Part shown: piece by piece, positions 1 through 44,656 of the stretch | How positions within the stretch are numbered: position 1 is the first letter of the stretch | Layout: every line of letters starts with the position of its first letter | NCBI RefSeq assembly: GCF_900188025.1 | Contig: NZ_FZNO01000002.1 | Location: 124,001 to 188,000, forward strand | Reading direction: 5' to 3' | DNA length: 64,000 nucleotides | Origin: Blastococcus mobilis | GTDB lineage: Bacteria; Actinomycetota; Actinomycetes; Mycobacteriales; Geodermatophilaceae | The notes under the pieces: generated by a model | Told to the model about the DNA's origin: nothing | What the model saw: only the letters and a program-made list of their open reading frames with translations | The model's database searches: none | Made by a program: the position numbers and the translations under genes

Positions 1-593
1 ACCAGGCGCTGCTGACGCTGGGCATCTCGCTGATCGTCGCCGAGGTGCTGTCGATCATCTACGGCAACGACGTGTTCTCCGTCCCGCCGCCGCCGGGCCT
101 GGCCGAGAGCATCGACGTCGCCGGTCGGGCCTACCCCGCCTACCGGCTCATGCTCATCGCCGTGGGCCTCGTGCTCGCCCTGGTCGTCTGGCTCGTGGTC
201 GAGAAGACCTCGATCGGCGCACTGGTGCGGGCCAGCGTGGCCGACCGCGAGATGGTCTCGGCCATGGGGGTCGACAACCGGAAGGTGAAGTTCGCCGTCC
301 TGGGTGTCGGCTCGCTGCTGGCGACCGTCGCCGGCGTCCTGGCCGCCCCTGTCTACGGCGCACGCCCCGGGCTCGACGAGACGATCCTGCTCCTCGCCCT
401 CGTCGTGATCGTCATCGGCGGTCGCGGCTCGGTCCGCGGTGCGCTGGTGGGCGCCCTGGTCATCGGCCAGGTGGAGTCGCTGGGCCGGGCACTGGTCCCC
501 GACCTGGCGTCCTTCATCCTGTTCGGCACGCTGGCGCTGGTCCTCATCGTCCGGCCGCGGGGACTCTTCGCCGGGAAGGTGGCCCACTCGTGA
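1..593 (+). CDS. livH: Branched-chain amino acid/aromatic-type ABC transporter permease LivH (5' truncated)
   Basis: Partial gene: the reading frame is already open at base 3 and the start lies before the window. It encodes an inner-membrane permease subunit of a Liv-type (HAAT family) ABC importer. Hydrophobic segments and the C-terminal stretch 'GGRGSVRGALVGALVIGQVE' are typical of LivH, where this loop contacts the ATPases. It heads a livH-livM-livG-livF run on the same strand. The stop codon lies inside the GTGA that opens a repeat cassette (R1). Liv-type transporters carry branched amino acids in some bacteria and benzoate or other aromatic acids in others. The substrate-binding protein is not in view, so the substrate cannot be read from sequence; the adjacent benzoate operon makes an aromatic acid possible. 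Confidence 0.9.
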   Translation, partial: QALLTLGISLIVAEVLSIIYGNDVFSVPPPPGLAESIDVAGRAYPAYRLMLIAVGLVLALVVWLVVEKTSIGALVRASVADREMVSAMGVDNRKVKFAVLGVGSLLATVAGVLAAPVYGARPGLDETILLLALVVIVIGGRGSVRGALVGALVIGQVESLGRALVPDLASFILFGTLALVLIVRPRGLFAGKVAHS

Positions 594-684
594 GCGAGTT
601 GGCGAGCTCACGCATGAGCGCAGCAGTCATGAGCACAGCAGCGCCGCGAACGCGGCCGACGAGCGCCAGCAAGGAGGACTCGTG
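590..684 (+). repeat. R1 repeat cassette, copy A (two hairpins plus RBS)
   Basis: The livH-livM junction is a structured repeat. Hairpin 1 is GTGAGC/GCTCAC (590-595 and 606-611) around a 10-base loop GAGTTGGCGA. Hairpin 2 is GCCGCG/CGCGGC (643-648 and 651-656). It then runs into GAGCGCCAGCAAGGAGG and the GTG of livM. Related copies are at 29941-30017 and, in tandem on the other strand, at 41604-41903. The cassette supplies the livM ribosome binding site. Confidence 0.8.
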
Positions 685-28740: not shown

Positions 28741-30014
28741 ATGTCCCGCTCGTTGCGTGAGGTCGTCTTCGTCGACGGCGTGCGCACCCCCTTCGGCAAG
28801 GCCGGTCCGAAGGGCATCTACGCCGAGACCCGCGCCGACGACCTGGTCGTCCGGGTCATCCGCGAGCTCCTGCGCCGCAACCCGGCGCTGCCGGCCGATC
28901 GCGTGGACGAGGTGGCCATCGCCGCCACGACCCAGATCGGCGACCAGGGCCTGACCCTGGGCCGGACCGCCGCGCTGCTGGCCGGGCTGCCCAAGTCGGT
29001 GCCCGGCTACTCGATCGACCGCATGTGCGCCGGCGCGATGACCGCGGTGACCACCACCGCCAGCGGCATCGCCTTCGGCGCGTACGACGTCGCCATCGCC
29101 GGCGGTGTCGAGCACATGGGCCGCCACCCGATGGGCGAGGGCGTGGACCCGAACCCGCGGATCATGAGCGAGAAGATCGTCGACCCGTCGGCCCTCGTCA
29201 TGGGCTCGACCGCGGAGAACCTGCACGACCGCTTCCCGCACCTGACCAAGGAGCGCGCCGACGCGTTCGCCCTGGCCAGCCAGCAGAAGTACGCGAAGGC
29301 CGTCGCCAACGGGCAGATCGGCCCCGAGCTGGTCACCATGGCCACCCGCTCGGCCGAGCAGGGTTGGGACGTCGCCACCGTCGACGAGCCCCCGCGGCCG
29401 CAGACCACCCTCGACGGGCTCGCCACCCTGAAGACGCCGTTCCGGCCGCACGGGCACGTCACGGCCGGCAACGCCGCGGGCCTCAACGACGGCGCCACCG
29501 GCTGCCTGCTGGCCGCCGAGGACGTCGCCCAGGAGCTGGACCTGAACGTCGGCATGCGGCTGGTCGGCTACGGCTTCGCCGGCGTCGAGCCCGAGGTCAT
29601 GGGGATCGGCCCCGTGCCGTCGACCGAGAAGGCGTTCGCCCGCACCGGTCTGTCCATCGACGACATCGGCCTCTTCGAGCTCAACGAGGCCTTCGCCGTC
29701 CAGGTACTGGCCTTCCTCGACCACTTCGGCATCGCCGACGACGACGAGCGCGTCAACCCCTGGGGCGGCGCGATCGCCGTCGGCCACCCGCTGGCCTCCT
29801 CCGGCGTCCGGCTGATGACCCAGCTGTCGCGGCAGTTCGCCGAACGGCCCGACGTCCGGTACGGGCTGACCGCCATGTGCGTGGGCCTCGGCATGGGCGC
29901 CACCGTGATCTGGGAGAACCCGAACTGGGAAGGGGCGGCAGTGAGCGAGCTCGCGAGCTCACCCGGGGCGGAGCGACGCGGAACGCGTCCGACGAGCGTC
30001 AGCGAGGAGGACAA

Positions 30015-41225: not shown

Positions 41226-41603
41226 TCAGCCGGCGCCGAGCTCGTACCAAGGGTTGTAGATGACCCGCTTGCCGTCGAAGGCGGCGAACCGGCCACGGGC
41301 GGTGAGGGTACGGCCCGGCTCGATGCCGGCGATCCGGCGGCGGCCGAGCCAGACGAGGGTGACCGACCCGGAGCCGTCGAAGAGCTCGGCCTCCAGCGTC
41401 GGGACGGTCTCGCGCGGGGTGTAGACGACCGACTTGAGCCGGCCGGTCACGGTCACGACGGCGCCCTTGCGGCAGGACCCCACCGGCTCGCAACCGGCGC
41501 TGGCCGACTCGGCACGCAGCTCCTGCGCGTCGATGGTCTGGTCGTCCGCGGTGAGCCGCTGCAGGGTGCGGGACAACCAACCGGGTGATCGGGTCTCGGT
41601 CAC
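41226..41603 (-). CDS. OB-fold nucleic acid-binding protein (Rv2694c-like)
   Basis: Small OB-fold protein of 125 residues. The barrel strands are visible: 'GAVVTVTGRLKSVVYTP', 'LEAELFDGSGSVTLVWLGRRRIAGIEPGRTLTARGRFA' and 'RVIYNPWYEL', matching RecG-like tRNA_anti OB domains. The GTG at 41603 matches homologue length (about 122) and has GAGGAGGG upstream. The same frame stays open through four 75-bp R1 units to a GTG at 41903, which itself follows TACGCT by seven bases, so longer products of up to 225 residues are possible. Function unknown, probably nucleic acid related. Confidence 0.85.
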   Translation of the reverse strand: MTETRSPGWLSRTLQRLTADDQTIDAQELRAESASAGCEPVGSCRKGAVVTVTGRLKSVVYTPRETVPTLEAELFDGSGSVTLVWLGRRRIAGIEPGRTLTARGRFAAFDGKRVIYNPWYELGAG

Positions 41604-41903
41604 GTGCCCTCCTCGCTGGCGCTCGTCGGCACGTGCCGACGTGCTGTGCCCCCTGCGTGACCTCGCAAGCTCGGTCACGGGCCCTCCTCGCTGGCGCTCG
41701 TCGGCACGTGCCGACGTGCTGTGCCCCCTGCGTGACCTCGCAAGCTCGGTCACGGGCCCTCCTCGCTGGCGCTCGTCGGCACGTGCCGACGTGCTGTGCC
41801 CCCTGCGTGACCTCGCAAGCTCGGTCACGGGCCCTCCTCGCTGGCGCTCGTCGGCACGTGCCGACGTGCTGTGCCCCCTGCGTGACCTCGCACGCTCGGT
41901 CAC
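41604..41903 (-). repeat. Four tandem 75-bp R1 units, in frame, each with its own RBS and GTG
   Basis: Four head-to-tail units with starts 75 bases apart (GTG at 41903, 41828, 41753, 41678, and then the gene's own at 41603). The middle units are identical; the ends differ at a few bases. Each unit has hairpin 1 GTGACC/GGTCAC with loop GAGCTTGCGA, the self-complementary hairpin GTCGGC-ACGT-GCCGAC, then GAGCGCCAGCGAGGAGG. Because 75 is divisible by three, all starts share the frame of the OB-fold gene, and each unit could be read as a 25-residue peptide rich in R, S and A. Confidence 0.9.
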
Positions 41904-41910
41904 CGGTCCC

Positions 41911-41916
41911 AGCGTA
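41911..41916 (-). promoter_or_regulatory. -10 box TACGCT in front of the first tandem R1 unit
   Basis: TACGCT on the minus strand, then seven bases (GGGACCG), then the GTG at 41903. This would make the transcript of the OB-fold gene begin exactly at the first repeat unit. Confidence 0.45.
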
Positions 41917-41976
41917 CGGCGTTCGCGACCGCGGGCGTGCCGATGTCCCCTAGCTCGCAGGCGCTCGGCGCGGAGG

Positions 41977-42699
41977 TCACCCTGCCGGTGGTGTCGCCGG
42001 CCGGGTGGCCGGCGGACGGACCGCCGCCTGCTGCTGCTGGGCCAGCTGCGCGGCCGCCTGCGGGGGCAGCGTCAGCGGGAGCTGCTCGCGGACCGGCATG
42101 GGGTCGGCCCCCCGGACGACGACGATGCCGCGAAAGGCCGCCTCCAGGACCGCCGCCGCCTCGGGGCTCTCGGCCGCCGGGCCGGTGATGAGCCCGCGCA
42201 GGAACCAGCGGGGGCCGTCGACGCCGAGGAACCGCGCGGGCCGGCGCACCGGCTGGGGCGCAGTGGCCTGGCCGGGCTGCGCGGGGGGGGCCGCGACGAT
42301 GGTGCCGGCCAGCTCGGGGCCGAACGGGCCCTCGACCTCCCGCAGCGAACCGCCCTGGCCCGAGGCGCTCCTGGCTAGGTCCTCGCGGACGCCGTCCCAG
42401 ATGCCACCGGCCCGCGGCGCCGCGAACGCCGACACCTGCAGGAGCGAGTCACCCGAGCGCAACGTCGCCCCGATGACCTTCTGCTGCTGGTTCAGCTCGA
42501 CCCGCAGGTCGGTGCCCGTGATCGCGGGCAGGCGGATGGAGCCGAGGTCGATGCGCGGCACGCCGTCCTGGGGCGCGTCCGCGGCGTCCCACGGCCCCGT
42601 GGTCTCCGCCACCTCCCGCTCCCGGTGCTGCGGCTCCGGGGGAACGCCCCGCTCGCGCAGGCTGCGGTCGATCCGGTTGCGCCGCCGTCCGAACGGCAT
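41977..42699 (-). CDS. DUF3710 family protein
   Basis: Actinobacterial protein of 240 residues at the Rv2696c position, immediately after dut (one base between stop and start). The conserved core runs 'RIDLGSIRLPAITGTDLRVELNQQQKVIGATLRSGDSLLQVSAFAAPR' and 'RFLGVDGPRWFLRGLITGPAA'. The C-terminus is a low-complexity Q/A/P tail. No enzymatic motif is seen. Translational coupling to dut is likely. Confidence 0.9.
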   Translation of the reverse strand: MPFGRRRNRIDRSLRERGVPPEPQHREREVAETTGPWDAADAPQDGVPRIDLGSIRLPAITGTDLRVELNQQQKVIGATLRSGDSLLQVSAFAAPRAGGIWDGVREDLARSASGQGGSLREVEGPFGPELAGTIVAAPPAQPGQATAPQPVRRPARFLGVDGPRWFLRGLITGPAAESPEAAAVLEAAFRGIVVVRGADPMPVREQLPLTLPPQAAAQLAQQQQAAVRPPATRPATPPAG

Positions 42700-43261: not shown

Positions 43262-44167
43262 TCAGGCGTCCGGGTCGAGCGGAGGGGTCGCACGCAGGTC
43301 GGCCAGCACCTGCTCGGCGAGGGTCTCCGTGGCCCGGCGGTTGATCCGTCCGGCCAAAGCGGCACCGACCAGGAACGGGGCCGCGGTCGGGACGGCGCGG
43401 GCCACCCTGCGGGTCATCCTCCGCTGCAGCGCCCGCATCCCCGGTCCGCCGAGCAGCGAGCTGATGCCCGCGACCCCGGCGCGGTCGATCGACCGCTGCG
43501 CCGACCAGCTGGCCAGGTAGGCGCCGGCCCGGGCGCGTGCGTCACCGGCCGCGGGGCGGCCGTACAGCTCGTGCAGCTCGCCGATCAGCACGATCTCGAC
43601 GCCGGCGACGAGCACCGTCTCGGCCCCGAGCTCGAGCGGCAACGCGAGCAGCGACGGCGGTGCGAACCAGTGCGCCGCCGAGAGCCCCCCGCCGGCCGCC
43701 CCGATCGTGGCGGTCGACCGCGCCGCCCGGGCGACGAGCGCGTCGGCGATCTCGGCGTCGGAGGCGCCGGGATGAGCCTGCCGGAGTCGCGCGCGGTCGC
43801 GGATGGGCAACCGCGGAGCTGCGGCCGACAGCAGCTCGCTGAGGAGCGCCCCCGGAGACCGGTCCCCGGGAGACGCGGCGCCGGCCGGTGGCGTCGCGGC
43901 CTCCCGTTCCGGCCGGAACGCCGCGCCCACGGCTCCGGCCACGGCGCCCACGACGTCCCGCAGGCCGGATGCCGCCGGCCGACGCGCCGTGCCGACCGGC
44001 TCGTCGGGGCGACCGGCGGCAGTGCCGACCAGGCCGGCGACCGCCTCGGCGACGGCACGCGCCGCCCGGCCGAGGCCGGTGTCCTCGGCAACCGGCGGAG
44101 GGGACGCCACCGGACGCGGCGGCGGGACGTCCCGTGGCGCACCGGTCCGCGCCGAGTGATCAGCCAT
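43262..44167 (-). CDS. Conserved hypothetical protein, alanine-rich with hydrophobic core
   Basis: Protein of 301 residues from the ATG at 44167. The first ~110 residues are proline- and alanine-rich and probably disordered. A conserved-looking part follows: 'HPGASDAEIADALVARAARSTATIGAAGGGLSAAHWFAPPSLLALPLELGAETVLVAGVEIVLIGELHELYG', with two hydrophobic helices, then a basic helical region 'LQRRMTRRVARAVPTAAPFLVGAALAGRINRRA'. This resembles EcsC-type peripheral membrane proteins, but not firmly. It occupies the place where M. tuberculosis has a DUF3093 gene. Confidence 0.65.
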   Translation of the reverse strand: MADHSARTGAPRDVPPPRPVASPPPVAEDTGLGRAARAVAEAVAGLVGTAAGRPDEPVGTARRPAASGLRDVVGAVAGAVGAAFRPEREAATPPAGAASPGDRSPGALLSELLSAAAPRLPIRDRARLRQAHPGASDAEIADALVARAARSTATIGAAGGGLSAAHWFAPPSLLALPLELGAETVLVAGVEIVLIGELHELYGRPAAGDARARAGAYLASWSAQRSIDRAGVAGISSLLGGPGMRALQRRMTRRVARAVPTAAPFLVGAALAGRINRRATETLAEQVLADLRATPPLDPDA

Positions 44168-44199
44168 CGGTCGCCCTCCTCGGTCGGATGCCCTTTCTC

Positions 44200-44349
44200 G
44201 GCCCCGTCCGCCCACCCTGCGCCTGCGAAGGGTGGGGAGGACGGGGGCCCCCTGCAGGGTCCCGCCGCCAGTCCGCGTGGCGGGGGCAGGGGCGGCCCCC
44301 CTGCAGGGTCCCGCCGCGAGCCTGCGAGTGGCGGGGGGCAGGGGGGTCC
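44200..44349. repeat. Three consecutive R3-type hairpins between DUF4193 and the hypothetical gene
   Basis: Unit 1 (44200-44249): arms GGCCCCGTCC/GGACGGGGGCC, inner stem CCACCCT/AGGGTGG, loop GCGCCTGCGA. Unit 2 (about 44250-44293) shares CCCTGCAGGGTCCCGCCGC with unit 3. Unit 3 (44294-44349): arms GGCCCCCCTGC/GCAGGGGGGTCC, inner stem CCGCCGC/GTGGCGG, loop GAGCCTGCGA. The array follows the DUF4193 stop on the minus strand and may end its transcript. Confidence 0.7.
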
Positions 44350-44353
44350 TTTA

Positions 44354-44656
44354 TCAGGCTGCGCAGTCCCGGCAGTAGAGCTGGTCGCCCTTGGTCGCCG
44401 CGAGCCGGCTGCGGTGCTGCACCAGGAAGCACCGCGAGCAGGTGAACTCGTCCTCCTGCTTGGGCAGGACGCGCACGGTGAGCTCCTCACCGGACAGGTC
44501 GGCGCCCGGGAGCTCCAGGTTCTCGTTGAAGTCGGTCTCGTCGACGTCGACCGAGGCGGACTGCGCCTCGGCCCGTCGCGCCTTGAGCTCCTCGAGCGAG
44601 TCCTCACCCAGCTCGTCGGCCTCGTTGCGGCGTGGGGCGTCGTAGTCGGTGGCCAT
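44354..44656 (-). CDS. DUF4193 family zinc-ribbon protein
   Basis: Acidic protein of 100 residues, homologous to Rv2699c. After an N-terminal acidic helix 'DELGEDSLEELKARRAEAQ', the C-terminal part has CSRCFLVQHRSRLAATK and then YCRDC, a CxxC...CxxC zinc ribbon. Essential in mycobacteria by report of the family, but its role is not known. GGGAGGGG is eight bases before the ATG. Divergent from the phosphotransferase gene across 355 bases. Confidence 0.93.
   Translation of the reverse strand: MATDYDAPRRNEADELGEDSLEELKARRAEAQSASVDVDETDFNENLELPGADLSGEELTVRVLPKQEDEFTCSRCFLVQHRSRLAATKGDQLYCRDCAA

Follow-up and report, generated by a model that had tools for sequence, protein, structure and literature searches.

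Four tandem copies of a probable start-codon element before an OB-fold-like gene of Blastococcus mobilis

The array and its five start codons

Four nearly identical repeat units stand head to tail before an OB-fold-like gene of Blastococcus mobilis, and five GTG codons in one frame could serve as its start. What is this array, and does its ladder of start sites serve this gene in particular? We analyzed the window (the whole stretch of 64,000 nucleotides under study), the genome that contains it (5.09 Mb in 88 contigs) and related actinobacterial genomes. The sequence comparisons indicate that the array very probably arose by tandem amplification from one copy of a dispersed short element that inserts in the sense direction at start codons of the form DTGA (D = A/G/T).

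The gene occupies 41226..41603 of the minus strand (125 codons plus stop). Its OB-fold domain (PF01336, E 0.0045) scores below the curated cut-off, and this assignment is weak but plausible. For 41595-41903, Tandem Repeats Finder reported a period of 75, 4.1 copies, 99% matches and a score of 604, the highest among its 12 rows for the window. The array itself comprises 4 x 75 bp on the minus strand (41604-41903), with the unit number as assembled in the 88-contig draft. The outermost unit 1 (41829..41903, minus strand, 75 bp, GTGACC...GAGGAGGGCCC) is followed by unit 2 (41754..41828, minus strand, 75 bp), unit 3 (41679..41753, minus strand, 75 bp, identical to unit 2) and the gene-proximal unit 4 (41604..41678, minus strand, 75 bp), whose end GAGGAGGGCAC abuts the GTG of the gene. 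The initial annotation had described four near-identical head-to-tail units, which these coordinates confirm; the exact identity it also mentioned holds for units 2 and 3 alone, as a single base separates each of units 1 and 4 from them.

It had further stated that each unit closes with GAGGAGG and a GTG, and this was found to be correct. The GAGGAGG of unit 4, a Shine-Dalgarno motif for the gene, lies at 41608..41614, and those of the other units lie at 41683-41689, 41758-41764 and 41833-41839 (all minus strand); the spacing to GTG is 4 nt in each of the four units. All five GTGs belong to a single open frame of 225 codons (41226..41903, minus strand), an in-frame fusion of the four units and the gene without internal stops, from which products of 225, 200, 175, 150 and 125 residues are predicted. 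The array length, 300 nt, is 0 mod 3. A -10-like box, TACGCT (41911..41916, minus strand), is indeed situated 7 nt 5' of the outer GTG.

The RNA fold of the region is more stable than those of shuffled sequences (z -6.0). The two hairpins per unit suggested earlier were borne out in part: one stem, between bases 1-6 and 17-22, covaries across the family, but the minimum-energy fold pairs the units with one another. A search of Rfam with window positions 41400-42100 gave only rows at E 0.65, far under the gathering score, and the loci L011, L017, L252, L275 and L336 had no match above that score; an Rfam riboswitch or leader was rejected on these grounds. Elsewhere in the window, 44248-44344 holds a different two-copy tandem repeat of approximately 49 bp, very G+C-rich and by eye unlike the element, between the minus-strand ORFs 43262-44215 and 44354-44656.

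A dispersed family at start codons

A BLAST search with one unit matched 40 places in the B. mobilis genome. Using a covariance model built from 22 units (alignment A2, model R1), at least 79 places were detected at E<=0.01, with 150 candidates scored. After extraction of these 79 rows, six weak or partial ones were dropped, and the remaining 73 units make up 60 sites, both singles and arrays. A start codon marks the end of the element at all 60 sites (50 GTG, 9 ATG and 1 TTG), and the start that it reaches is DTGA in 58 of them. A frame of at least 90 codons opens from that start at 59 of the 60 sites, compared with 339 of 862 control DTGA of the window. Ten of the 60 downstream proteins were scanned and Pfam families were found in all ten, including EPSP synthase, RibBA, YchF, GpsA, glutamyl-tRNA reductase, homoserine dehydrogenase, shikimate kinase and a NuoK-type subunit. 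The element seems to be tolerated even in front of basic metabolic genes. Two mechanical counts describe its left side: an upstream frame of 100 codons or more terminates at the left TGA in 38/60 sites (control, 164/862), and TANNNT stands 4-9 nt before the left start at 10/60 sites (control, 2/734).

Two more copies are located in the window, both on the plus strand. The one at 590..681 (92 bp) ends at the GTGA of a permease gene (PF02653), whose start is overlapped by the TGA of a mini-ORF within the element. It contains a 15-bp direct duplication (1.9 copies) at 613-641, so that 92 = 77 + 15, and its length is still 2 mod 3, with the stop/start overlap. The other, at 29941..30014 (74 bp), ends at the GTGA of a PF02737/PF00378 gene of the fatty-acid oxidation type, and again a mini-ORF TGA overlaps the gene start.

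The commonest unit in this genome is 77 bp long (32/60 sites; 43/79 rows), and lengths of 2 mod 3 account for 43/60 sites and 54/79 rows. With such a length, the mini-ORF runs from the left DTG to the TGA within the right DTGA, giving a 4-nt overlap. This overlap, absent from the window array, is present at 42 of the 60 sites. Ten sites, including the window array, have a length of 0 mod 3 (78 bp at eight, 75 bp at two), and there the frame is open into the gene. Among the 28 sites that depart from 77 bp, 11 are 2 mod 3, which is no clear preference, and individual copies therefore seem to drift freely.

Lengths in other families were counted on 100 copies, restricted to full-length matches; families f10, f11 and f15 were left out, as were L262, L341 and L344 (69, 64 and 63 nt, no overlap). 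These copies measure 80 bp (35), 77 bp (27), 68 bp (22), 65 bp (10) and 71 bp (1); 95/100 are 2 mod 3, 94/100 have the overlap and 100/100 end at a start codon, although copies that share a genome or an array do not count as independent. The four lineage lengths (65, 68, 77 and 80 bp) are all 2 mod 3 and give mini-ORFs of 22-27 codons; this agreement in length is hard to explain unless the overlap is used. By match extent, 99 of 127 full-length rows of the class sample and 51 of 55 of family f2 are 2 mod 3, among the matches listed. The class-sample rows of 59 and 57 nt belong mostly to 68-bp-spaced arrays and are misaligned (91/116 without them), and for this reason extracted copies were used for the length counts. 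Inspection of 28 class-sample loci revealed the overlap in 20; four (L259, L264, L267 and L274) misfit and look like chance. At L271 (positions 1451-1600, genome G208), three 50-bp units, consisting mostly of the two conserved ends of the element, lie after the stop of one frame and before the GTGA of the following frame; this unit length, too, is 2 mod 3.

Does the mini-ORF encode a selected peptide? Over 31 units of 77 bp, its codons have no third-position excess of change, so the mini-peptide itself is not visibly selected, and selection on its amino acids was set aside. Stop codons in 32 units of 77 bp number 0 in the mini-ORF frame vs 11 and 3 in the other frames, and in all 58 units 3 vs 15 and 7; these counts give modest support to an open mini-ORF frame.

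Read in the direction of the gene, the element begins with DTGANC, followed by a loop, an internal arm GNTCA(C/T) and a variable middle with a conserved ACAGCA-like stretch; after this come CGACGAGCGCCAGCGAGGAG, a few bases and the next DTGA. Bases 1-6 pair with bases 17-22, and ten double changes occur in alignment A2, where 87.9% of cells are paired, compared with 17-45% for slid structures. Averaged over the 60 sites, 4.9 of the 6 positions form Watson-Crick pairs vs 4.05 for shuffled left ends, a value reached by none of 2000 shuffles. Compensatory pairs include ATGAGC/GCTCAT, CCGAGC/GCTCGG and GCGGGC/GCCCGC, and two main subfamilies differ in the pairing of the middle of the element. In unit 1 of the window, the left hexamer GTGACC (41898..41903, minus strand) is the 5' arm of this stem and is complementary to the internal arm GGTCAC (41882..41887, minus strand).

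The left and right ends of the element were also compared. In the B. mobilis genome the match is weak (4.57 vs 4.44 of 6 by chance; 108 of 2000 shuffles as high), perhaps through older copies, and it is strong only in families f2 and f19. The first base is the same on the left and the right in 41 of 48 usable f2 copies (Fisher 1e-6) and in 22 of 25 f19 copies (Fisher 5e-4); pooled with ten copies from genus g13, it is the same in 71 of 82, with 18 of the 100 copies set aside as array-internal or not DTGA. In f2, moreover, it is complementary to an internal base in 46/49 copies (18/67 lack the motif). The match among left end, right end and internal arm suggests that targets may be chosen by base pairing, and it equally fits a duplication of the target with a stem kept by compensation.

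The family extends well beyond this genome. Matches were detected in 105 of 112 same-family genomes and 10 of 12 genera, and genomes of the genus have 4 to 78 matches each at E<=0.001. The class sample yielded 50/394 genomes at E<=1e-4, some chance matches included, and family f2 yielded 30/301 at E<=0.001. With model R2, 94 of 396 genomes of genus g13 matched at E<=0.01, mostly by single weak matches, with at least 9 in the best genome; g13 also holds the 65-bp lineage. Judged by size and number, f2 is taken as Mycobacteriaceae, with its genera g13 and g14 as Mycobacterium and Nocardia. The candidates scored per genome numbered 41 in the same family, 11 in the class sample, 15 in f2 and 11 in g13, and per-genome counts are to be read as "at least". 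By these model matches, relatives of the unit occur in other actinobacterial families. A two-unit query against plasmid and phage collections (blastn, words of 11, which detects close copies) had no match in either, and carriage of close copies by plasmids or phages was set aside.

Occupied and empty sites in relatives

The closest named relatives by OB-fold protein are mostly Blastococcus species (Geodermatophilaceae), and the start GTGAC of the gene is conserved in relatives. Among 80 named loci, 5 were counted as occupied or decayed and 75 as unoccupied. In 70 of the 75 unoccupied loci a TANNNT box precedes the gene's own GTGA(C/T), at a distance of 6 nt in 69 and 7 nt in one; the five loci without the box are, by record title, outside Geodermatophilaceae. 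With the box so placed in these empty loci, the OB-fold gene looks ancestrally leaderless, and the initial proposal that the mRNA may begin at the outer GTG agrees with this arrangement, since the GTG of unit 1 occupies the position of the leaderless start in empty relatives. One of the records, L049, is titled Bacillus sp. AZ43 (marked unverified) and encodes a protein 95% identical to that of the window; it is probably a mislabelled Blastococcus.

At occupied loci, the box lies before the element's outer GTG by 7 nt in B. mobilis, 6 in G001, 6 in G002, 7 in G015 and 6 in G004. The units are 4 x 75 bp in B. mobilis, 2 x 77 in G001, 1 x 74 in G002 and 1 x 77 in both G015 and G004, and decayed versions of the site are found in G. 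sabuli I12A (76 nt) and B. litoris (79 nt). Variation in unit number, which had been expected between strains, was thus seen between species, with 4, 2, 1, 1, 1 or 0 units at this start. None of the six orthologous versions of the array (74, 76, 77, 77, 79 nt and 2 x 77) is in frame. The G002 unit has in common with the window unit a shorter palindrome, yet it is 74 bp long and retains the overlap.

Occupied and empty versions were also compared at three other genes. The element is present by eye at the aroA start in 2/16 genus genomes and at the ribBA start in 2/16, and by profile at the moxR start in 3/13 (16 genomes, 13 inspected). At moxR there are 7 units in B. mobilis, 1 in G001, 1 decayed unit in G005 and none in the other 10 of 13, and the spacing between the old GGGAG ribosome site and the outer GTG has changed by no more than 1 nt. 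Where the ribBA site is empty (L319), the upstream gene finishes at an ATGA overlap, and element residues are absent. At the ribBA loci of B. mobilis and G004 (L318 and L325), the upstream frame reads through the element to stop at that same overlap, 26 codons further on, and the last ~26 residues of the upstream gene in these two genomes are element-derived. Compared between occupied and empty sites, the spacing from the old -10 box or ribosome site to the outer start is retained within 1 nt. The site pairs at the OB-fold gene, aroA, ribBA and moxR indicate insertion at DTGA. In G008, the aroA match (C1:4076341-4077604) is in three pieces, which suggests frameshifts or sequencing errors.

Proposed mechanism, alternatives and known systems

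The sequences show that the left end of the element stands in place of the original start of the gene, so that the old leaderless promoter or ribosome site faces the element's own DTG, and that the right end brings a Shine-Dalgarno motif just 5' of the gene's start. We propose that ribosomes engage the outer start and read the mini-ORF, then stop at the overlap and begin anew on the gene. Such translation and re-initiation would make an insertion nearly neutral, even before basic metabolic genes, and at operon joints the overlaps on both sides would keep the genes coupled. The four units in the window would have arisen by tandem duplication. Because each is 2 bp shorter than the common form (75 vs 77), the stop is lost and initiation at the outer GTG is predicted to give an N-terminal fusion of up to 225 aa, and the four Shine-Dalgarno-led GTGs could start forms of 200, 175, 150 and 125 residues. 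The predicted ladder of 125-225 aa would follow, then, from a frame-shifted and amplified copy.

The initial annotation had suggested that the gene could give several products or that the array could load several ribosomes in front of it. Read as a selected device of this gene, the ladder would either generate OB-fold isoforms from successive starts or load ribosomes at several sites. The five in-frame, Shine-Dalgarno-led GTGs, the frame free of stops and the leaderless-type outer start would suit such a device, and longer repeats before fpg1 of M. tuberculosis are tied to modestly higher mRNA in PMC2734929, with units of 55 and 79 bp (both 1 mod 3, a misfit to the 2-mod-3 rule). The family-wide data speak against a private ladder, which was rejected: the element stands at 60 starts of the genome, 59 of them other than this one; 42 of the 60 sites have the stop/start overlap instead; the commonest length, 77 bp, is not a multiple of three and only 10/60 sites are 0 mod 3; all six orthologous versions are out of frame; and 75 of the 80 named relatives were counted as lacking the element. 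We consider a gene-specific device quite improbable. That the array is an artefact of the draft assembly is hardly credible; a near-identical array of 300 bp is difficult for short reads and the draft has 88 contigs, but the element is found at the same start in G001, G002, G004 and G015, and arrays are present in other genomes.

For the movement of the element two readings were weighed. One, rather unlikely in our estimation, is that it is moved in trans by a candidate IS200/IS605-like or REP-associated Y1 transposase, with the internal arm as a guide that pairs with the DTGANC target. In single-strand transposition, pairing between guide and cleavage site would give just such matching ends and arm, and the element is short, hairpin-bearing, fixed in orientation and devoid of a gene of its own. 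On the other hand, the arm is explained equally well by a stem that hides the mini-ORF start and is kept by compensatory change, target duplication and target matching give the same pattern here, and the end match is weak in the B. mobilis genome. Spread by recombination, in which units excised from arrays recombine at short matches (DTGASC) at other starts and no dedicated transposase is involved, is less likely still: arrays do occur and the ends match targets in two families, but matches of six to nine bases are short for homologous recombination, and the sharp boundaries of the element in distant families point to an enzyme.

More tentatively than for insertion itself, and with some doubt, we put forward a wider reading, namely a class of 50-80-bp elements in many actinobacterial families that may find start codons through base pairing. 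Genes whose first codons match the element ends would be selected by an internal guide with complementarity to DTGANC; equipped with a coupled mini-ORF, a Shine-Dalgarno site and a leaderless-compatible start, such an element could land on almost any gene without silencing it. Frame-shifted tandem copies, such as those in the window, might in turn give rise to new N-terminal extensions, and insertions at operon joints to new C-terminal ones.

Among known systems, and as compared by published description, mycobacterial interspersed repetitive units (MIRUs) come closest, and at the family level the elements would work like them. The elements likewise are short repeats dispersed over the genome (at least 79 model places here), insert at start codons (60/60 sites, with empty sites at four genes), contain an internal ORF with a 4-nt stop/start overlap (by anatomy, 42/60 sites here and 94/100 elsewhere) and change in tandem copy number (here between species: 4, 2, 1 and 0 at the OB-fold gene; 7, 1 and 0 at moxR). 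They differ in that the window array is in frame rather than coupled at -4, and in that they occur in Blastococcus, Geodermatophilaceae and other actinobacterial families. Supply et al. 1997 is reportedly the source for MIRU, and the term DTGA is said to come from it. A literature search, with subscription journals mostly beyond its reach, found, among the papers listed, neither DTGA together with MIRU nor a description of such elements outside mycobacteria. The J Bacteriol review PMC12548453 describes MIRUs, present in many mycobacteria, as units that seem to be mobile and that, on insertion at a start codon, place an ORF of their own at a -4 nt coupling to the gene. Their size is given as 40-100 bp (PMC12548453, PMC2734929). 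The M. tuberculosis units of 77 and 53 bp are both 2 mod 3 (PMC2453075 and PMC4213456), and the MIRU of the senX3-regX3 gap is reported only from M. leprae and the M. tuberculosis complex (PMC4213456).

Translation-coupled upstream mini-ORFs, as outlined in PMC12548453, resemble the element in that a short ORF delivers ribosomes to a stop-coupled start; here, unlike those evolved in place, the ORF is carried by a dispersed element. REP/RAYT and IS200/IS605 systems share with it short, hairpin-bearing, dispersed units without a gene of their own and internal pairing with a cleavage or target site. We know of no REP sequences described as start-codon insertions.

MIRU repeats serve tuberculosis genotyping, and, according to PMC2734929, it is not well understood what exactly such repeats do in M. 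tuberculosis. In harmless soil actinobacteria, elements of this design are present in dozens of copies, with arrays and many unoccupied orthologous sites, which renders both their spread and their effect testable. The OB-fold gene, where a leaderless-type start appears to have been turned into a Shine-Dalgarno-led one, would be a natural before/after pair for translation studies. The elements also explain N-terminal extensions in gene annotation, given the open frame at the 10 of 60 sites that are 0 mod 3; the eight 78-bp sites (e.g., L010, L022, L159 and L179), with a frame open into the gene, may carry false N-terminal extensions in automatic annotation.
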